The translations under genes and the position numbers were made by a program. From Candidatus Cloacimonadota bacterium (lineage in GTDB: Bacteria; Cloacimonadota; Cloacimonadia; Cloacimonadales; TCS61): a stretch of 54,342 nucleotides of DNA. Shown here one piece after another: positions 1,453 to 36,842 of the stretch (position 1 is its first letter; each line of letters begins with the position of its first letter). Under the pieces are notes generated by a model. That model was given only the letters and a program-made list of their open reading frames with translations. It ran no database searches and was not told the origin of the DNA. The stretch covers positions 1 through 54,342 of the forward strand of contig JAIPGP010000014.1 in the NCBI GenBank assembly GCA_021735645.1, in the 5' to 3' direction.

Positions 1453-1579
1453 AATAATGTAGAATTTTTAGATTATTGTACAAAAACAGCCACACATATA
1501 GATCGTAATGTACAATATAGTAAATGGCGGGAGTAATAATGTTAATGGTAAAAAGGAATATTTAAGGGAGTAATTATAT

Positions 1580-3916
1580 ATGGCAATAGATCTAAATCAA
1601 TCTTCGTATATTGAACTAAGAGACATAATCAAGAAAAGAATTGGGTCAGTTGTTTTCTGGGTAGGTTCTGGCATTAGTTCACCTTATGGCCTTCCTACAT
1701 GGAATGAATTGAAAGAAAAACTGATAAAAGAACTTGATAAGAAAATTGAAAATATTGATGAAAATGATATTGAAAAACTTACTAAAAAGAAAGATGGAGT
1801 TTTAGCATCTCCAAATAATTGGATAGCTTTTGAGAGACTTAAAAAAGCTCTAGGAAAAACTACTTATAATAGTAGAATAAGAGAACTGCTATCACACCCC
1901 CAAAAAGAATCAGATTTATATAAAAGAATATGGTCATTAGGGATATCGGGAATGATAAATCTAAATATAGATAAACTTGCATCAATTGGATTTCAAAATG
2001 TTTTTAATAATAACGTTTTGTCATCATTTGCAGGAAATTCAATAGATAAATACTGTCATACAATTAATAATCCGAACAAATTTCTGCTGAATTTGCATGG
2101 CAATCTCGAAGATACTTCTTCGTGGGTTTTTACGCACAATGAATTGAAAGAACTAATGGAATCTGATGCATATACTTCTTTTCTTGATGCAGTAATTATT
2201 AGTAAAACAATTGTGTTCATTGGTATTTCTGCTGATGATGTTTCTACAGGTGGTCATATCGAGAAGTTTGTAAAAAAAGAAATCAATTTATCTCAACATT
2301 TTTGGATAACGAATCGTCGTGACTTAAAAACTGATGAATGGGCAGAAAAAACCGGAATACATTTAATTAAATATAAGAATGAGAAGAATCATTCAGAAAT
2401 ATTGGAACTACTTTCAGATATTTCTAATTACAAACCTAAAGAACAAGATGCACCAGTTGTAGTTTCTAAGACAAATGATACAAAGTATGATGATTTACCA
2501 AGTCCCAAAGACTTATTAAAAGAGGAAGATGCAGAAATTATAAGACTTTATTTAAATGAAGAAGCATCAAGGATTTTCAATAGTAATAAAATTAATCCTT
2601 ATGATGAGTTTTCAGATTTTATAAAGAAATATGATCAAGCTCTACACAGAGCATGGTATACGAGTATCAACGAACCTGATAATGAATTATTGGGTTATAC
2701 GTTAATTGAAGAGAAACATAACGGTAATTTTGGTGATGTTTTCAAAGCAAAAGATGATTTAGGTAATTCTTTAGCAATAAAACTTCTTCAAAACAGTGTT
2801 AGGAAAAAAGAAGAATATATTCAAGGTTTTCGAAGAGGAATCAAGTCGATGAAAATCTTAAATAAACATAACATAGATGGAATGGCAAAATTAATAGATG
2901 CTTCCGAAATACCAGCAATAATAATAATGGACTGGATTAATGGTTCAAATTTAAAAGAAGTCGTTCAACAAAATCAATTAACAAATGATATAGATTTTTT
3001 AAGTTTCTTCATTAAATTGACTAAAATCATAAATTCAGCCCATCTCTTACCGGAAAATGTTTTACATAGAGATATCAGACCTACAAACATCATGATTGGT
3101 TGGCATGATGGTGAACTTGATCTTAATGATATCCATGTTTTAGATTTTGATTTAGCTTGGTACAAATCTTCAATTGAGTCGAAAGAGGTTTCATTCAGTA
3201 TTGGTAATGGATATTTAGCACCAGAACAACTAGTGAGTAATTCCAATATATCTACAATCAATGCAGCTGTTGATTCATTTGGTGTTGGAATGACTTTATT
3301 TTTTGTTATTTGCGGAAAAGATCCTCAACCTTCACAGCAAAAACACAGTGATTGGTATGAATTGTTAAATAAATATTCACGTAAATACTTCAGTAGAAGT
3401 AATTGGAAATCGATGGGTAACAGAATGGGCAGGTTAGTAAGGAATTGCACTATGAATACTCAATCAAAAAGATGGGATTTCTCACAAATAATAGATGAGC
3501 TAAAAAGATTAAAAATCGCTGCTTTGAAACCTAATAAAGTATTATCATGTGATTTAATCGCTGAAGAAATATGTTTTAGAAGTCGTTATAAAGACGAATA
3601 TGAATGGGATGAAGATAAGCTAAAGGCTATTATCAAAGTATTAAGTGGCACTGAAATTGAAGTTATTGGTAATGAAAACACTAGATCTATTGATATTACT
3701 TTTAACTGGGTGAGTGTTAATAATCTTAAATCCAAAACTAGATCAAACGCTAAATCATATATCGAATATTTGATTAGTAAAAATTTCACTAATATTGAAG
3801 AAAATATACAATCAAATCAGTTATGTATATCAGCGAGCATTTCATCATCAAATGTTTCCCAAAATTACAAGAAGTATGCTGAGGTGATTTCAACACTTTC
3901 TAGTTTTTTCATATAA
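1580..3916 (+). CDS. SIR2-like NADase / Ser-Thr protein kinase fusion
   Basis: The first ~280 residues form a SIR2-like domain: a GSGIS nucleotide-binding motif at 29-33, NID at 129-131 and the catalytic-type histidine in NLHGN at 173. Residues about 370-660 form a protein kinase: a glycine-rich loop NGNFGDVF at 381-388, lysine 401, HRD at 497-499 with asparagine 503, DFD (in place of DFG) at 522-524, and an APEQL activation-segment end. The last ~110 residues are unassigned. GGGAG precedes the ATG. In phage-defence proteins SIR2 domains deplete NAD, and kinases can sense or relay infection, so a defence role is plausible but inferred. It stands alone and is followed by an attC-like site. Confidence 0.88.
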   Translation: MAIDLNQSSYIELRDIIKKRIGSVVFWVGSGISSPYGLPTWNELKEKLIKELDKKIENIDENDIEKLTKKKDGVLASPNNWIAFERLKKALGKTTYNSRIRELLSHPQKESDLYKRIWSLGISGMINLNIDKLASIGFQNVFNNNVLSSFAGNSIDKYCHTINNPNKFLLNLHGNLEDTSSWVFTHNELKELMESDAYTSFLDAVIISKTIVFIGISADDVSTGGHIEKFVKKEINLSQHFWITNRRDLKTDEWAEKTGIHLIKYKNEKNHSEILELLSDISNYKPKEQDAPVVVSKTNDTKYDDLPSPKDLLKEEDAEIIRLYLNEEASRIFNSNKINPYDEFSDFIKKYDQALHRAWYTSINEPDNELLGYTLIEEKHNGNFGDVFKAKDDLGNSLAIKLLQNSVRKKEEYIQGFRRGIKSMKILNKHNIDGMAKLIDASEIPAIIIMDWINGSNLKEVVQQNQLTNDIDFLSFFIKLTKIINSAHLLPENVLHRDIRPTNIMIGWHDGELDLNDIHVLDFDLAWYKSSIESKEVSFSIGNGYLAPEQLVSNSNISTINAAVDSFGVGMTLFFVICGKDPQPSQQKHSDWYELLNKYSRKYFSRSNWKSMGNRMGRLVRNCTMNTQSKRWDFSQIIDELKRLKIAALKPNKVLSCDLIAEEICFRSRYKDEYEWDEDKLKAIIKVLSGTEIEVIGNENTRSIDITFNWVSVNNLKSKTRSNAKSYIEYLISKNFTNIEENIQSNQLCISASISSSNVSQNYKKYAEVISTLSSFFI

Positions 3917-3929
3917 TGAATATAAATGC

Positions 3930-4081
3930 CATAGCAAGCGCGTCGGCAGTTCGGTTTTGCAGTACTTTTTGCTTGAACAAGCCATTGGCTTACAAGCCTT
4001 AGGTTCAAGGATTTGTTTGTTTGTTGTGCTACGTCCCAAAAAATCGGGATGATCCCTCGCATACGTCTTACATTGTTAGCA
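3930..4081 (+). repeat. attC-like cassette recombination site 1
   Basis: The element begins ATAGCAAGCG, continues with GGCAGTTCGGTTTTGCAGTA and CTTTTTGC, then an imperfect hairpin (TTGAAC pairing with GTTCAA around nested AAGCC/GGCTT stems), a TTGTTGTG segment, and ends GTTAGCA at 4075-4081. The first ~40 bases are nearly the same as in the element at 5869. Length (~150 bp), position directly after a gene and imperfect dyad symmetry fit integron attC sites. The left core (CCATAGC) is degenerate. Confidence 0.5.
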
Positions 4082-4114: not shown

Positions 4115-4402
4115 TTGGGAACAGGTACAAAATTAGTTAACTTGGCAATTCGAGAAATGAAAAGAGCTAATAAAGAGCGAGAAAGACAAGAACGAGAACG
4201 AATCAGACAACTAAAACAGCTTGATCGTGAAAGAGTTAGACAAAAAAAAGAAGAGCTTAGATTACAGATGCAATTTGAAAGAGAACAAATAAGTGCAAAC
4301 AAAGAAAAAATTAAGAATGATTTGGAAAAAGAAAAACGTGAATTCGAGCTTCGCATAAAACAAAGAAGAACTGTACGGCTTGAATTCCTAAACAGAATAT
4401 AG
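4115..4402 (+). CDS. charged coiled-coil protein, 95 residues
   Basis: The start is TTG at 4115, chosen because AGGAGG lies five bases upstream and no ATG is better placed. From about residue 15 the product is an almost unbroken charged helix rich in R, E, K and Q, with no membrane segment. It ends 11 bases before the next gene, which also contains long coiled coils, so the two probably form one transcription unit and may interact. No family was recognised. Confidence 0.6.
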   Translation: MGTGTKLVNLAIREMKRANKERERQERERIRQLKQLDRERVRQKKEELRLQMQFEREQISANKEKIKNDLEKEKREFELRIKQRRTVRLEFLNRI

Positions 4403-4413
4403 CTGGAGGAAAA

Positions 4414-5841
4414 ATGGAACTTAATACATTATCAATATTATTGTTAATAATTTCAATAGTTTTCTTGGTTCTTGTTATTTACCTATTTATCCAATTAAAA
4501 TTGAAGAGAAAAGATGGTAAAACTTTGGACCAACAATTGCAGAGCTTAACAAACACGATAGAAGACAAAAACTCTACACTTTCAGATATAACAGAAAAAC
4601 TAACAAATCTAAACAATGAATTGAGTCACCTTCTGGAACTTGAAAAAAATGAGAATACAATAAAAGCAAATGTGGAAGAATCAAAACAGAGGCTTGATGA
4701 ACTTACTAAAGAAATTGAAATTCTGGAGAGTTCCAAAACCGAATTATCGGATAATTTAATTAGTATAAAGCATGATGTGTCAATTTTTGAGCCTTTATTG
4801 GATTTAATTAACGTTGGCTTCGTCGATGAGCCTGAATACCTTTTTGACACAAGTGAAAGATTCAAAGAGGAAATAAAAATTATTCGTGAAAATCAAAAGA
4901 CCCTTATAAGTGAAAAAAAAGCGATAATTATTCCAGATCAAATAGCCTTAACATCTAATAATACTTATGCAAAAAAAATATTGAATGCCCAATCTCAGTT
5001 AATGCTAAAAGCGTTTAATGTTGAGTGTGATAATTTAATGGAAAAAGTTAGAACTAGTAATTACGCGAAAATTCTTGAGAGAATTGATAAATTAGCAGCA
5101 ACAATTGAGCAATTATCAATATCTCTAAAATGTGGTTTCAATAAAGAATACGTTGAGTTAAAGTTCAAAGAATGCGAATTACAATATCAATTTAAGTTGA
5201 AAGATGCCCGAGAAAAAGAAGAACAAGCAATGATAAAAGAACAAATGAGAGAAGAGCAAAAGGCTATTAGAGATTTTGAAAGAGCATTAGCAAAAGCCCA
5301 GAAAGAAGAAAAAATGTATAAAGATGCTCTTGAAGAAGCCAGAAAAGAATTTGAAATTTCAAATGACAATGATAAGGAAAAATTAAGGGAGAAAATTGCT
5401 CTTCTTGAGAAAAAATTGGAAGAAGCAGAAGAAAATGAAAAGCGAGCAAAAAGTATGGCAGAACAAACCAAACGAGGACATGTATATATAATCAGTAATA
5501 TTGGTTCTTTTGGTGAGGATGTATACAAAATTGGGCTAACAAGAAGACTAGATCCTTTAGAAAGAGTTAATGAATTGGGGGGTGCAAGTGTTCCATTTTC
5601 ATTTGATGTTCACGCGATGATTTATAGTGAGGATGCGCCAGCCCTTGAAACAAAACTGCATAGAGAATTTTCTCGATTTAGATTAAATCAAGTTAAATTA
5701 AGGAAAGAATTTTTCCGTGTAAATTTGTTAGATATAAAAGAAAAAGCTGTGGAAATTACCGGTAATGAGTTAGATTTTAAAATTACAGCATTAGCAGAAG
5801 ATTATTATGAATCATTGAAATTACAAAGTCAATATTCGTAG
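4414..5841 (+). CDS. membrane-anchored coiled-coil protein with C-terminal GIY-YIG (T5orf172/MUG113-type) domain
   Basis: A single membrane segment (about residues 5-27) is followed by coiled coil (28-110), a middle region resembling DUF4041, and another long coiled coil (250-350). The final ~100 residues match the T5orf172/MUG113 branch of the GIY-YIG superfamily: GHVYIISN near 354, YKIG near 371, ALETKLHREF near 410 and KEFFRV near 430. The DUF4041 plus T5orf172 combination is known from phages and mobile islands, where a DNA-binding or nicking role is supposed. GGAGG precedes the ATG. The whole unit sits between two attC-like sites. Confidence 0.82.
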   Translation: MELNTLSILLLIISIVFLVLVIYLFIQLKLKRKDGKTLDQQLQSLTNTIEDKNSTLSDITEKLTNLNNELSHLLELEKNENTIKANVEESKQRLDELTKEIEILESSKTELSDNLISIKHDVSIFEPLLDLINVGFVDEPEYLFDTSERFKEEIKIIRENQKTLISEKKAIIIPDQIALTSNNTYAKKILNAQSQLMLKAFNVECDNLMEKVRTSNYAKILERIDKLAATIEQLSISLKCGFNKEYVELKFKECELQYQFKLKDAREKEEQAMIKEQMREEQKAIRDFERALAKAQKEEKMYKDALEEARKEFEISNDNDKEKLREKIALLEKKLEEAEENEKRAKSMAEQTKRGHVYIISNIGSFGEDVYKIGLTRRLDPLERVNELGGASVPFSFDVHAMIYSEDAPALETKLHREFSRFRLNQVKLRKEFFRVNLLDIKEKAVEITGNELDFKITALAEDYYESLKLQSQYS

Positions 5842-5868
5842 TTATAGTGCTGTGATTTTGAAAATTGC

Positions 5869-5953
5869 TGCTAACAAGCGTTCAGCAGTTCGGTCTTGCA
5901 GTGCTTTTTGCCGAAACATACCTGTTCATGTTTGGGCTGTTGTTTGATAACTA
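5869..5953 (+). repeat. attC-like cassette recombination site 2
   Basis: The site starts TGCTAACAAGCG, followed by CAGCAGTTCGGTCTTGCAGT and GCTTTTTGC, as in the element at 3930. An imperfect hairpin comes next (GCCGAAACAT pairing with ATGTTTGGGC, nine of ten), then TGTTGTTTGATAAC. TGCTAAC is the exact reverse complement of GTTAGCA at 4075-4081, as expected for the two ends of one integron cassette carrying the genes at 4115-5841. The right-hand core is not clear. Confidence 0.5.
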
Positions 5954-5991
5954 GACTTGAATATGATTTTAATTAAAAAAGGAGTAGTGAA

Positions 5992-6156
5992 ATGGTTGAA
6001 GATAAACATAAACTGAGTGAAAAAGAAGAAATGGCATTAGCTAGGAGATTACATGATGCAGTGGATTGGAAGCAAGCAAGAATAGAAAGCGAGAAGAAAT
6101 TAGCAACCGCCAAAGATCAGGAGCATCTTAAAAAAGAGGAAAAAGTGAGAAATTAA
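5992..6156 (+). CDS. small charged protein, 54 residues
   Basis: AAAAAAGGAG lies about eight bases before the ATG. The product is very hydrophilic and helical, with segments such as KLSEKEEMALARRL and KKEEKVRN. It has one tryptophan and no cysteine. No family was recognised. It follows directly on the second attC-like site, where the next cassette gene would be expected. Confidence 0.5.
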   Translation: MVEDKHKLSEKEEMALARRLHDAVDWKQARIESEKKLATAKDQEHLKKEEKVRN

Positions 6157-6176
6157 ACAAGGGAGGTTGATAAGTT

Positions 6177-6260
6177 ATGAAACAGACTGCATATGGAAAA
6201 CCAATTCTTCAGTTCGTTTTGTTCGATGCTCGAAATCTCTTTATTCTCACCTTACATTGA
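6177..6260 (+). CDS. 27-residue reading frame, possible gene fragment
   Basis: A strong GGGAGG stands eight bases before the ATG, 16 bases after the preceding stop. The peptide begins MKQTAYGKPILQFV and ends soon after. The good initiation signal with a very short product suggests either a truncated gene or a leader peptide. No homology could be assigned. Confidence 0.25.
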   Translation: MKQTAYGKPILQFVLFDARNLFILTLH

Positions 6261-6362
6261 ACAGTTTCCTGCTGATTCTCGAAAGATGAGCTTAGATTTT
6301 CGTTGACTGAATCAGGTAGGCAAATTATATTTTAAAAAAAAATAAATGAGAGAGAAATAATC

Positions 6363-6782
6363 ATGATCAGTTATGAAGAAGAGATTAAAAGGTATGAAGA
6401 AATACTGGGTGTTAGTGGTGAGAAAATTGTAGTTAGTATGGCAACATTAAGAAAGTATATCAAATATCTTCAAAAAGAGCTGGAGATGCCCTGTGAATTA
6501 ACCGGCATAGATGATTTTCAATGGGAAGAATATTATGTTCTTGGACCTGGTGATAGCGATGAATATGAGAAATTGAAAAAAACTCGACCATCTTATACTG
6601 ATACTTTCAAGCTGATAGCTGTAGAAAATGACATTACAGATAAAAGACTTGGTATCATGGTAAGCGTAAGAAGGGGACGGCAAAAATTTTATTTACCTTT
6701 GCAGGATTTAGAAGCAACAGATAAGAAATCCCTAAATTACAAGTTAATTGATGAGTATTGTTCCTGGATAGTGAACTACTAA
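6363..6782 (+). CDS. hypothetical protein with CcbP-like C-terminal region
   Basis: The 139-residue product is soluble and acidic. Its C-terminal part (RGRQKFYLPLQDLEA, then DKKSLNYKLIDEYCSWIVNY) resembles, from memory, the end of CcbP-type calcium-binding proteins and small relatives with LPL-LEV...SPNYQLLDDYSVWFVN. The N-terminal ~55 residues are predicted helical. GAGAGAA before the ATG is only a weak ribosome binding site. The function is unknown and calcium binding is not shown by the sequence itself. Confidence 0.6.
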   Translation: MISYEEEIKRYEEILGVSGEKIVVSMATLRKYIKYLQKELEMPCELTGIDDFQWEEYYVLGPGDSDEYEKLKKTRPSYTDTFKLIAVENDITDKRLGIMVSVRRGRQKFYLPLQDLEATDKKSLNYKLIDEYCSWIVNY

Positions 6783-6905
6783 TTTATTTTATTAACGCTA
6801 TAGACGTAAAATATTACTTTTATAAAATTAAGATAATTATAAACCCATCTTGTGCAATTGGATTTCACAAATAGCAGTACCGATATATAGGGAGCACCGG
6901 GAAAA

Positions 6906-6980
6906 TTACAAAATTATTATAAATATCTCTTCTTCGGCATAATCGTATTTTAAGACTTTCAACGGTTCTTTCTCATAATC
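6906..6980 (-). pseudogene. 3' remnant of a second PNGase F-like gene
   Basis: On the minus strand this stretch encodes DYEKEPLKVLKYDYAEEE followed by a short tail and a stop. It closely matches the C-terminus of the intact gene just upstream (DLEKEPLKTLKYDFAEEE). Only the last ~25 codons remain. The duplicated segment breaks off next to the inverted repeat at 6983-7022. Confidence 0.65.
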
Positions 6981-6982
6981 AC

Positions 6983-7022
6983 CTGCCTAACATTTCCGAA
7001 ATTAAGATATCTTGTTAGGCAG
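6983..7022. repeat. 10-bp perfect inverted repeat with GCCTAAC/GTTAGGC arms
   Basis: CTGCCTAACA at 6983-6992 and TGTTAGGCAG at 7013-7022 are exact reverse complements, separated by 20 bases. The arms contain GCCTAAC and GTTAGGC, which fit the integron core consensus RYYYAAC/GTTRRRY. The element is far shorter than a normal attC. It lies between convergent genes, so a simple bidirectional terminator is the main alternative, although no T-tract follows. Confidence 0.45.
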
Positions 7023-7056
7023 TCCCATCCAGCTTAGCTGAGTGGTTATATTTATC

Positions 7057-8691
7057 TTATTCCACCCTGAATCGGAATACCTCTTCTTCTGCAAAATCAT
7101 ATTTTAAGGTTTTTAGCGGTTCTTTCTCAAGATCAAGCAGCTCTATTTTGCCATTTTCTCCCATTAATTCGGGATTGGATTGGCTATACCACCAATGCCT
7201 CATCATGCCATCTTCCGCTCTGTCTATAATTCGTAATTCATAATTCCCAGGTTCCAGTTCGATCAATTTCAGAAAGTCCTCATTATCTTCAAAGGCTGCT
7301 TTTTCATATAATACTCCTCCCACATCATTAGTAATATAAAAGGCATTTTCCTTTGCCCTGCCCAGTCCCTGGGCTTTTATGTGCAGATAGAATTTATTCG
7401 GTATGATCTCCGGTGCTACCACCTTTGAACTCAGGTAGTTATTATCAGGGTATACATCCTCTACCCCATTTGGCAGAGAGCATTTGGCATAGAAATCAAG
7501 ATTTGTGAAATCCAGCCAGTCTATGATCGGCAGGATAAGTGTATCTTTCTCAGTGAATTCCAAAACACCATTCCAGGTGTATTCGTATTTCTCTTCACCT
7601 TTTAATCCATAATCAATTTTAAGTGTTCTCAAGGTCTGGCTGCCGGAATTCCTGATCACTACCATAGGGTCTTTGATAATGGGGTTCACTCTACTGTATT
7701 CATCTTTTGCTGATGGGGCAATAATGTCATAAACCTCAGGATTTATCTCAAAATTAGGAGGTCCATAAGTGATAAGCTGATGCGTCTGTCGGAAATATCC
7801 ATTCTTCTCACCATTATCCCGGTACATTTCTATACTATAATCCAGGTGTAGTGTATCTCCTGGAGCAACTTGATCTGTGATCTCAAAGTCATATGTATCC
7901 ACCGAAGTCCCGGGACACCAGCCTGCGCGGTCAAACTGCCAGGTACCACCTTGTGGATAGACAGGATTATCTCCACAATTCTTCCAGACTATCCAGCGAG
8001 TGAGCACGTAGCCATCCACGTAATAGGTATGAGTTTTACGATCCCATTCACAGCAATTGCGCGGTCCTTCATGCCCATGCCCGGATATCCTTGCTCGCAG
8101 TTTATAGCCATAAGCCTGGGGATTTAAGATAATTTCTGTTTCTTTGAAGATGCTGTCCCTGGCGATAAGTTCATATTTATAATTTCCCCATTCATAAATA
8201 TTCTCCACGGAGATCACATCGCGAGGAGGAGTTCCCTCTATAAAGATAAATTTAAGGTCCAGAAGCTCTGACTGGCTCCCGGAGGACAGATCAACTTTAC
8301 CGCGCAGGAGTGGGGCGTAATCCGTAACATCATAGATATATGTAAAGCCGCATTCACCATTCAGATCAAGCCCGTTCCCATAAGGGGTAATGTAATTATC
8401 CAGTTCAAATACCTCCACAGTATCACCCACCGGCTTATGGATCAAAGTATAGGTGCAGTAATCCCATTCCCCGCAGGGAAAGCTGTCCTGCTTAGTGCGC
8501 TCATCACATTTCAAGGTGCGATACATCCAGATCTTTTCCCAGGTGCGCTCATCATCAGGAAATTCAAACACGTCCCGCCGCTTTTCTATATCATCAAATG
8601 TAATTGTCTGCACTATCAAAGAGTCACCCGCAGCGGAAAATAATGATCCAGTAATTTGCATCAAAAAAAGAAATATGATCAAGCTCTTCAT
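7057..8691 (-). CDS. secreted PNGase F-like peptide-N-glycosidase family protein
   Basis: A signal peptide (about residues 1-19) leads into a PNGase F-like fold: TWEKIWMYRTLKC near 50, CGEWDYCTYT near 73, ISGHGHEGPRNCCEWD near 205 and GTWQFDRAGWCPG near 250 all have counterparts in the N- and C-terminal jelly-roll domains of Flavobacterium PNGase F. That enzyme removes N-glycans from asparagine. A further ~200 residues form a C-terminal extension, probably beta-sandwich. The cysteine content fits an exported protein. With the fucosidase and GH3 enzyme at 27.8-31.9 kb it suggests glycoprotein glycan use. Exact substrate specificity is not established. Confidence 0.82.
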   Translation of the reverse strand: MKSLIIFLFLMQITGSLFSAAGDSLIVQTITFDDIEKRRDVFEFPDDERTWEKIWMYRTLKCDERTKQDSFPCGEWDYCTYTLIHKPVGDTVEVFELDNYITPYGNGLDLNGECGFTYIYDVTDYAPLLRGKVDLSSGSQSELLDLKFIFIEGTPPRDVISVENIYEWGNYKYELIARDSIFKETEIILNPQAYGYKLRARISGHGHEGPRNCCEWDRKTHTYYVDGYVLTRWIVWKNCGDNPVYPQGGTWQFDRAGWCPGTSVDTYDFEITDQVAPGDTLHLDYSIEMYRDNGEKNGYFRQTHQLITYGPPNFEINPEVYDIIAPSAKDEYSRVNPIIKDPMVVIRNSGSQTLRTLKIDYGLKGEEKYEYTWNGVLEFTEKDTLILPIIDWLDFTNLDFYAKCSLPNGVEDVYPDNNYLSSKVVAPEIIPNKFYLHIKAQGLGRAKENAFYITNDVGGVLYEKAAFEDNEDFLKLIELEPGNYELRIIDRAEDGMMRHWWYSQSNPELMGENGKIELLDLEKEPLKTLKYDFAEEEVFRFRVE

Positions 8692-8785
8692 GATCCCCCC
8701 GTTTTTTATCTATTGAAGTTATTGAAATCCCCATTCTTCGATAATTGTCAATAATTTTGTCTAATGCTCTTGAATCACCAGCTAA

Positions 8786-8925
8786 GTGCACGTGCACCGC
8801 CGGGTATTTCCAGGTGGGGTGCAGATAACGACCACTATCAATCGCTGAAAATATTACTGCTGATAACTGCCCGTAGTTCTCGCCCCACTTCCGGAATACC
8901 GTTAGCGGTGCAGGTCCTACTTAAT
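8786..8925. repeat. long imperfect inverted repeat with GTGCACGTGCAC palindrome
   Basis: A 12-bp perfect palindrome GTGCACGTGCAC (8786-8797) opens the element. The following arm GCACCGC...GGGTATTTCC...TGGGG (8794-8823) is the imperfect reverse complement of CCCCAC...GGAATACC...GCGGTGC (about 8891-8919), leaving about 65 bases between the arms. Such a fold suggests a structured RNA, a MITE-like element or a recombination site. No coding function is evident. Confidence 0.5.
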
Positions 8926-8945
8926 TAGTCAATTATCTTCAAAGT

Positions 8946-8998
8946 AACCCATTCTTCCCCAAACACTGGCTGCGTCGGTGTTTGGGGGAGGATGGGTT
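8946..8998. repeat. 21-bp stem hairpin
   Basis: The arm at 8946-8966 and the arm at 8978-8998 can pair over all 21 positions if two G-U wobbles are allowed, with an 11-base loop. Each arm contains a CCCCAAACAC or GTGTTTGGGG core. There is no T-run after it. It could be a terminator for an upstream transcript, a structured RNA or a palindromic repeat. Confidence 0.7.
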
Positions 8999-9130
8999 GA
9001 GAATATAATAAAATCCCAGGTAGTCGTTGCACTTCAACCAGGGGCTACAAATATATATCACCTGTGGTGAAAGCACTCAACATATATTGAACAGTATATA
9101 AATTCATTGAGAATAATATTTTTATAATTA

Positions 9131-9157
9131 TTGACATGTATCATATTGATATATAAT
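9131..9157 (+). promoter_or_regulatory. candidate sigma70-type promoter
   Basis: TTGACA at 9131-9136 and TATAAT at 9152-9157 are separated by 15 bases; alternatively TAATTT two bases further gives a 17-base spacer. It lies about 35 bases before the ATG at 9190. The match is good but the DNA is AT-rich, so confidence is moderate. Confidence 0.5.
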
Positions 9158-9189
9158 TTTAGATTAAGTTAAGAATAAAGGAAAAAGAT

Positions 9190-10539
9190 ATGACAGAAAA
9201 TAAAAGGCAGGCACTGATCAAACTTGGGGCAGATAAATTAGCTGATACGCTGATAGAGCTGGCAGAATCCTCCAATGAAGTTTATGAAATGATAGAAAAC
9301 CTTACAGCAACACCGGAAGAAAAAGTAAAGATTTTTAATAAGAAACTTGCCAGTCTTAAACGCTCAAAGAGAGTTATCTGGGAGAGAGAAAGTTTTAATC
9401 TTGCCAATGAACTTCAGCGACTGCTGGAAAATCTGGAAAATGTTGTAAAAGATCCTCTTACAGGTGTAAAACTTGTAACAAAGTTTATTGAAGCTGATGA
9501 ATATATTTTTAGTAGATGTGACGATTCCAGTGGAGTCGTTGGAGATGTTTTCGCAATTGAAGCTGTTGATCTTTTTTCTCAGTATGCTTCTCAATTACCT
9601 GATAAGGATAAACTGGAGAAGATTGTTCTTAAATTATTCAATAATAACGAATATGGAGTACGTGATACACTTATTGATCGTGCTGCTGAATACCTTCCTG
9701 AGAGGAATATCCGCAAAATGATCACTTACCTTCAGAAAAAGGCTGATAAAGAAACTGTTGAATGCGATAAAAGGCATTATTTATATCCAATTGAATCACT
9801 GGCAAAGCAAATAAGAGATGCAAAACTATTTGAAGAAACTAGAATTGAAAATTGGGGTGAATTGAAAATACCGGGAACCCTCGAACTTGCCCAAATACAT
9901 ATCAAAAATGAAGAGTTTGATAAAGCCCTTAACTTACTTAACATGATTCCTGCTGATAATGAATATATGAAGCATGAAAAAGATGAATTATTGAAAGAAA
10001 TTTATGCTAAAACAGGTGATAAAGCAGATTTGAAAGAACTGCTCTTTAACATTTTAAGAGAATCGCATCATATTGATAACCTTGATCAATACCTGAAACT
10101 TATCGGTAATGATAAACGTGACCAAGTGATAAATGACGAAATTGCTGTAATTATGAATTCTCTCTCTTTAAACTATGCAGATATTGAATTTCTACTTGAT
10201 ACAGATAAATTTGAGGAAGCGGAAGAATATATCCTAAAATGGTCTGATCAATTAAATGGCAGCTTTTATCATATTTTGATTCCCTTAGCAGAACAAATGG
10301 AATCCCAAAACCGTTATCTTGCTGCCACTACCCTCTATCGCAGCCTCTTGATCTCGATCCTGGAGCGTGGCTTTAACAAAGCATATTCACATGCGGTTAA
10401 ATACCTGAAAAAATTAGATATACTGGCACCAAAAATAATTGACTGGAAAGATAAAATGAACCACAAAGATTTCCTTGTTTTATTAAACAAAGATCATGGA
10501 CGCAAATCCAGCTTCTGGGAAAAATACAATCAGAAATGA
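9190..10539 (+). CDS. DUF6880-type helical repeat protein
   Basis: The 449-residue soluble protein is all helical. The block RCDDSSGVVGDVFAIEAVDL near residues 113-132 and YGVRDTLID near 155-165 are typical of DUF6880 proteins, some of which are linked to SWIM zinc-finger proteins. The second half contains TPR-like helix pairs (LELAQIHIKNEEFDKALNLL) and ends FWEKYNQK, the usual family ending. AAGGA precedes the ATG and a promoter candidate lies just upstream. No biochemical role is known to me. Confidence 0.72.
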   Translation: MTENKRQALIKLGADKLADTLIELAESSNEVYEMIENLTATPEEKVKIFNKKLASLKRSKRVIWERESFNLANELQRLLENLENVVKDPLTGVKLVTKFIEADEYIFSRCDDSSGVVGDVFAIEAVDLFSQYASQLPDKDKLEKIVLKLFNNNEYGVRDTLIDRAAEYLPERNIRKMITYLQKKADKETVECDKRHYLYPIESLAKQIRDAKLFEETRIENWGELKIPGTLELAQIHIKNEEFDKALNLLNMIPADNEYMKHEKDELLKEIYAKTGDKADLKELLFNILRESHHIDNLDQYLKLIGNDKRDQVINDEIAVIMNSLSLNYADIEFLLDTDKFEEAEEYILKWSDQLNGSFYHILIPLAEQMESQNRYLAATTLYRSLLISILERGFNKAYSHAVKYLKKLDILAPKIIDWKDKMNHKDFLVLLNKDHGRKSSFWEKYNQK

Positions 10540-36609: not shown

Positions 36610-36842
36610 AAAATCTTCTCTTCTTCTCCAATTGATAATTTTACATTTTACATTTTCAATTTTACATTACTTCATGTGCTCTCTGTGGTGAAAACCTTCT
36701 CTTCTTCTCCAATTGATAATTTTACATTTTACATTTTCAATTTTACATTACTTCATGTGCCCTCTGTGGTGAAAATCTTCTCTTCTTCTCCAATTGATAA
36801 TTTTACATTTTACATTTTCAATTTTACATTACTTCATGTGCT
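36600..36842. repeat. 81-bp tandem repeat, three copies
   Basis: Each unit consists of CTCTGTGGTGAAAA, TCTTCTCTTCTTCTCC, an AT-rich part (AATTGATAATTTTACATTTT) and TACTTCATGTG. Unit starts are at 36600, 36681 and 36762. A fourth, degenerate start is at 36843. Confidence 0.9.

Follow-up and report, generated by a model that had tools for sequence, protein, structure and literature searches.

The window, a 54,342-nucleotide stretch of Candidatus Cloacimonadota DNA that forms one entire contig of a draft genome, carries an intact open reading frame on the forward strand running from an ATG at 1580 to a stop codon at 3916 and encoding a 778-amino-acid protein. The gene is AT-rich (29.7% GC vs 37.9% for the window), and its product is arranged in the order SIR2 domain, helical linker, kinase domain and C-terminal domain. 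The next gene downstream is also intact and belongs to the known defence family PD-Lambda-1. The features of the locus are:

1564-1570, forward strand: Shine-Dalgarno-like AAGGGAG, 9 nt 5′ of the ATG (sequence)
1580-3916, forward strand: SIR2-kinase fusion gene, 778 aa (open reading frame, Pfam, full-length relatives)
1637-2449, forward strand: SIR2_2 domain, residues ~20-290 (Pfam, profile match, family alignment, structure model)
2495-2659, forward strand: helical linker, residues ~306-360 (structure model)
2690-3514, forward strand: protein kinase domain, residues ~371-645 (Pfam, family alignment, structure model)
3533-3913, forward strand: C-terminal domain, residues 652-778 (alpha/beta fold match, own model)
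3943-3979, forward strand: 37-bp repeat, copy 1, just 3′ of the SIR2-kinase gene (sequence)
4414-5841, forward strand: PD-Lambda-1 defence gene (DUF4041 + T5orf172/MUG113), 475 aa (PADLOC, E = 2e-156)
5882-5918, forward strand: 37-bp repeat, copy 2, 84% identical, just 3′ of PD-Lambda-1 (sequence)

An initial annotation made from the sequence had read this protein as a SIR2 domain and a protein kinase in one chain. Pfam places both SIR2_2 (residues 152-263, E = 4.8e-13) and Pkinase (residues 381-639, E = 2.9e-28) on the single uninterrupted frame, confirming both domains, and a third domain at about residues 652-778 had been overlooked. The full-length structure model has a mean pLDDT of 85.7 and a pTM of 0.86.

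A single-sequence search returned no relative in about 85,000 species genomes or viral contigs. There was likewise none among 125 genomes of the same phylum, no kinase fusion among the SIR2 proteins of that phylum checked by Pfam, and no relative spanning most of the protein among 72,556 plasmids and 50,697 phage records, where tblastn gave kinases only. The family was opened by a degenerate DNA pattern encoding [V]LDFDL[SA]W[HY]K, a kinase motif chosen partly on the model of similar kinases; this pattern recovered two viral contigs (L013 and L014), both with a complete SIR2-kinase fusion co-linear with the window protein at 31-37% identity across the full length. We used an alignment of these three proteins as a profile to scan genome contigs, an alignment of remote SIR2 proteins being too diverse for scanning, and identified, besides the viral contigs, 32 loci in 11 phyla: Ignavibacteriota, Bacteroidota, Planctomycetota, Pseudomonadota, Acidobacteriota, Armatimonadota, Myxococcota, Actinomycetota, Chloroflexota, Hydrogenedentota and Verrucomicrobiota. 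Both domains are spanned by 30 of the 32 matches, the partial ones (L040 and L043) lying on short contigs, so that all relatives with this kinase motif that are sufficiently complete are SIR2 fusions. One stop or frameshift breaks the gene at each of five loci (L020, L031, L038, L044 and L046), which may reflect decay, assembly error or switching. Phyla are intermixed in a tree of low resolution, in line with horizontal spread without proving it. Distance matrices of the SIR2, kinase and C-terminal domains correlate (r 0.73-0.76), indicating that the three have been inherited as one unit. Residue conservation was counted over 30 aligned members.

The SIR2 domain contains the motifs G29-S-G-I-S33, N129-I-D131 and H173, all as initially annotated, and GxGxS and the three residues N129, D131 and H173 are kept in 28-30 of the 30 members (N129 in 29, D131 and H173 in every one). 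Its profile matches DSR2 (E = 4e-37), ThsA (5e-33) and KomC (8e-26), all with solved structures, and also human FAM118B. N129 and H173 align with DSR2 N133 and H171, whose joint mutation (N133A/H171A) gives the catalytically inactive protein used as control when NAD+ degradation is assayed (PMC10973363). The class features of defence SIR2 NADases, a Rossmann SIR2_2 domain with GxGxS, NxD and a catalytic His, are thus all present, and a single Cys, read from the sequence, leaves the domain without a zinc ribbon, which disfavours a canonical deacylase. Homology to DSR2, ThsA and KomC therefore gives good grounds for predicting that the domain cleaves NAD, as had been proposed. One member, from Spirilliplanes (L025, 9674-12349), has degraded SIR2 motifs (GSQFV in place of GxGxS, and N129S) together with an intact kinase; this natural effector-dead variant implies that the effector is not required everywhere.

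The kinase domain combines strong catalytic conservation with an atypical architecture. Its motifs are K401, H496-R-D498, N503, D522-F-D524 and PEQ at 548-550; K401, D498, N503, D522 and the complete DFD, as well as the APE-like PEQ and D565, are present in all 30 members, in agreement with the lysine, HRD, asparagine and DFD initially reported. The beta3 Lys, HRD Asp, Asn and DFG Asp of eukaryotic-like kinases are therefore in place, but the alpha-C Glu is missing: an invariant Gly stands in its place (G420 of the FRRG at 417-420, 30/30), where PknB-type kinases show FERE. DFG is likewise replaced by an invariant DFD, HRDxK has become HRDxR in 27 of 30 members, with R500 in place of the catalytic-loop Lys, and E443 is an additional invariant acidic residue; in the preceding linker, R322 is invariant. 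The family thus represents an atypical kinase group in which the catalytic residues persist despite the missing alpha-C Glu, useful for the study of kinase mechanism. With this Glu missing, the kinase may, but need not, be active as initially described. The same absence makes a pseudokinase switch the main rival to gating by phosphorylation: the domain would bind ATP, or sense a fall in ATP, and, transferring no phosphate, act only as an allosteric switch or as a scaffold that supports SIR2 oligomers. The loss of the Glu that pairs with K401 and the invariant DFD favour such a switch, but true pseudokinase families usually lose some of the residues that are kept here in every member (K401, D498, N503, D522, PEQ and D565), and we regard this alternative as serious though rather unlikely.

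The C-terminal domain, modelled alone with a pLDDT of 92.8, finds its matches among class-I type III secretion chaperones, including Spa15 and ExsC, and in YbjN, with E values down to 3.6e-4 and TM scores up to 0.63; the match is structural only, at 11% identity. Chaperones of this fold bind polypeptides, making the role of a protein sensor plausible for the domain. Mean pairwise identity within the family is 20% for the C-terminal domain, 33% for SIR2 and 43% for the kinase, so that the C-terminal domain is the fastest evolving part of the protein and the kinase the most conserved. Such rapid divergence is as expected for a domain that faces changing phage proteins.

The three-domain architecture, the spread over 11 phyla, the conservation of both active sites, the lack of a conserved partner and the presence of defence neighbours are observed features of this family, NADase activity is predicted by homology, and the C-terminal sensor, the kinase as gate and abortive infection are inferences. 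With moderate confidence, we propose that the SIR2-kinase fusion protects against phage by abortive infection and acts on its own, its SIR2 NADase being gated by the C-terminal domain and the kinase. The chaperone-like domain would bind a cue of infection, most likely a polypeptide of the phage; the kinase would relay the signal, either by phosphorylating itself or by changing shape in an ATP-dependent manner; this step would open the SIR2 active site; and the released SIR2 would cleave NAD+, causing the infected cell to stop growing or die. The cue-sensing and SIR2-opening steps are proposed on the basis of the mode of action of DSR2, whose sensor domain displaces the lid of SIR2 (PMC10973363). 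In place of phosphorylation, which the initial annotation suggested as the gate, it may be ATP binding or the binding of a ligand by the C-terminal domain. A bolder and distinctly speculative version would make this the first immune protein to unite a kinase and an NADase in one chain, with the chaperone-like domain catching a phage polypeptide and the atypical kinase phosphorylating its own SIR2 in trans to deplete NAD+; if true, it would be a bacterial one-protein counterpart of a receptor-kinase-executioner cascade. If phosphorylation does control an NAD-depleting immune effector, it would join cyclic nucleotides, oligomerisation and ligand binding as a new activation principle. With members in 11 phyla, clean catalytic residues for mutation in both enzymes and, if functional, a single gene, the family lends itself to testing.

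Known defence systems account for parts of this architecture. DSR2 is likewise a single large protein with an N-terminal SIR2 domain of the same group and a catalytic Asn and His, and its C-terminal part is the sensor (PMC10973363), to which we liken the C-terminal part of the fusion; however, the C-terminal region of DSR2 is large (~700 aa) and helical and there is no kinase, whereas the window protein has a kinase and a chaperone-like domain instead. ThsA of Thoeris and KomC of Kongming are SIR2 NADase effectors as predicted here, but neither has a kinase, ThsA using a SLOG sensor and a TIR partner and KomC acting with other Kom proteins. The PADLOC model for LmuA of Lamassu matches residues 22-291 (E = 6.7e-20); LmuA lacks a kinase and requires LmuB, and the LmuB SMC gene had no strong match in the window neighbours tested (best E = 0.0015), so the protein does not qualify as Lamassu. 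On the kinase side, the domain is related to those of the antiphage kinases MAD6 (MADS), PD-T4-6, MkoA and Stk2-type enzymes, none of which, to our knowledge, has a SIR2 domain. The PADLOC MAD6 model matches the window protein (E = 8.9e-28) and all 28 members tested, but the NCBIfam MAD6 score is 57.9 bits vs a cut-off of 460 and no mad cluster occurs among the window genes tested; MAD6 and MkoA are parts of multi-gene systems, and FRRG/DFD is the signature of the SIR2-kinase family. PD-T4-6 is a stand-alone kinase, and the kinase match here covers only part of a SIR2 fusion.

KKP is a Ser/Thr kinase-based phage defence carried on prophages (PMC11341870) and resembles the fusion in its use of a kinase, but comprises three genes, two kinases and a PP2C phosphatase antitoxin, with no NADase. 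Its precedent as an antiphage kinase (PMC11341870) lends some weight to an inverted arrangement, in which the effector role falls to the kinase, acting on a host factor by phosphorylation as Stk2 or KKP does, while SIR2 is a sensor or brake reading NAD+ or ADP-ribose. The kinase being the most conserved part and L025 having lost its SIR2 motifs with the kinase retained both suit this arrangement. By contrast, SIR2 catalytic residues are kept in nearly all members and match those of NAD+-degrading defence enzymes, and no phosphatase, PP2C included, was found among the window neighbours tested, making the arrangement unlikely.

No model in PADLOC or NCBIfam covers the SIR2-kinase fusion, and among the SIR2 systems listed in a 2023 review on domains that defence systems have in common, none is a kinase fusion (PMC10952713). 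We found no description of such a fusion in defence in a literature search that reached few subscription papers and no bioRxiv preprints, which leaves its absence unproven. The individual parts are known; new, as far as tested, are their combination, the kinase with FRRG/DFD and the chaperone-like domain at the tail.

The genomic neighbourhoods of relatives reveal a real but partial association with defence genes. In L015 and L016 the gene lies inside a type I restriction-modification (R-M) operon, flanked by hsdR and hsdM and followed by hsdS-like genes, and L015 additionally has a SoFic-like gene. L042 is flanked by Wadjet JetABC at a distance of ~250 bp, JetA is found near L028 and MkoC near L038, L048 sits in a prophage beside a late tail gene and a tape measure gene, and L049 adjoins a terminase gene. 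Nearby, 126 open reading frames match 52 PADLOC families with E values down to 0, compared with 6 mostly generic families (best E = 2.5e-32) for 129 open reading frames elsewhere on those contigs, at a distance of 5.5 kb or more, a control that covers ~130 open reading frames on each side and in which a few strong loci supply most of the families. Many, perhaps most, relatives lie among ordinary genes such as those for ribonucleotide reductase and UvrB. The loci have no conserved neighbour family in common, in line with the initial remark that no partner gene is obvious, indicating a self-contained, single-gene unit. That annotation had also suggested a single-gene defence protein and had named metabolic operons as the setting that would speak against it; several relatives and the window are in defence settings and the near/far control agrees, lending the suggestion support that the many relatives among ordinary genes temper. 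Separately, just upstream of the family member in L036, a ribonucleotide reductase (5642-9664) carries a LAGLIDADG_3-containing insertion that is probably an intein.

The members that stand alone among housekeeping genes would fit a non-defence stress-signalling enzyme that modifies proteins by ADP-ribosylation or deacylation together with phosphorylation. Against such a role, the domain has one Cys and no zinc ribbon of canonical deacylases, SIR2 groups with defence SIR2 proteins, the distribution is patchy over 11 phyla, GC content is low, and genes of the family are met beside PD-Lambda-1, in R-M operons, in a prophage and near Wadjet or Mokosh genes, and we judge it improbable. Most doubtful is a guard of other defences that fires once a phage disables a neighbouring system, for example type I R-M: the placement within the hsdR-hsdM operon in L015 and L016 suggests it, but these are just two closely related members of 32 loci and no R-M gene is shared elsewhere.

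For the self-contained antiphage protein that we favour, PD-Lambda-1 in the window is best seen as context rather than partner. The initial account of the setting was right that there is no obvious partner gene and overlooked this adjoining defence gene, which is preceded by a small coiled-coil-like open reading frame (4115-4402). Its term cassette-like finds weak backing in the 37-bp repeat, shared at 84% identity after both genes, which is possibly a cassette boundary; the repeat stretches fold no better than shuffled sequences (z = -0.23 and -0.78), and the genome holds no further strong copies. An attC-type integron cassette is unsupported by this folding, and an integron check upstream of the SIR2-kinase gene found only decayed recombinase tails. 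In a synteny comparison with two related genomes, their contigs end too early to place an insertion boundary.

Several minor features accompany the locus. Just upstream, 831-1007 and 1277-1457 are two 85-87% identical decayed tyrosine-recombinase 3′ ends (TLRHSFANHLMEQGEDLR-type), ~450 bp apart, with merely weak traces elsewhere in the genome. A 139-aa open reading frame at 6363-6782 has a marginal match to the calcium-binding protein CcbP (E = 1.2e-4). Further along the window, an identical 31-mer recurs at 36638-36830, 37053 and 41565, with a period of 81 bp across its first three copies, and the same 31-mer is present at 100% identity in the congeneric genome G088.
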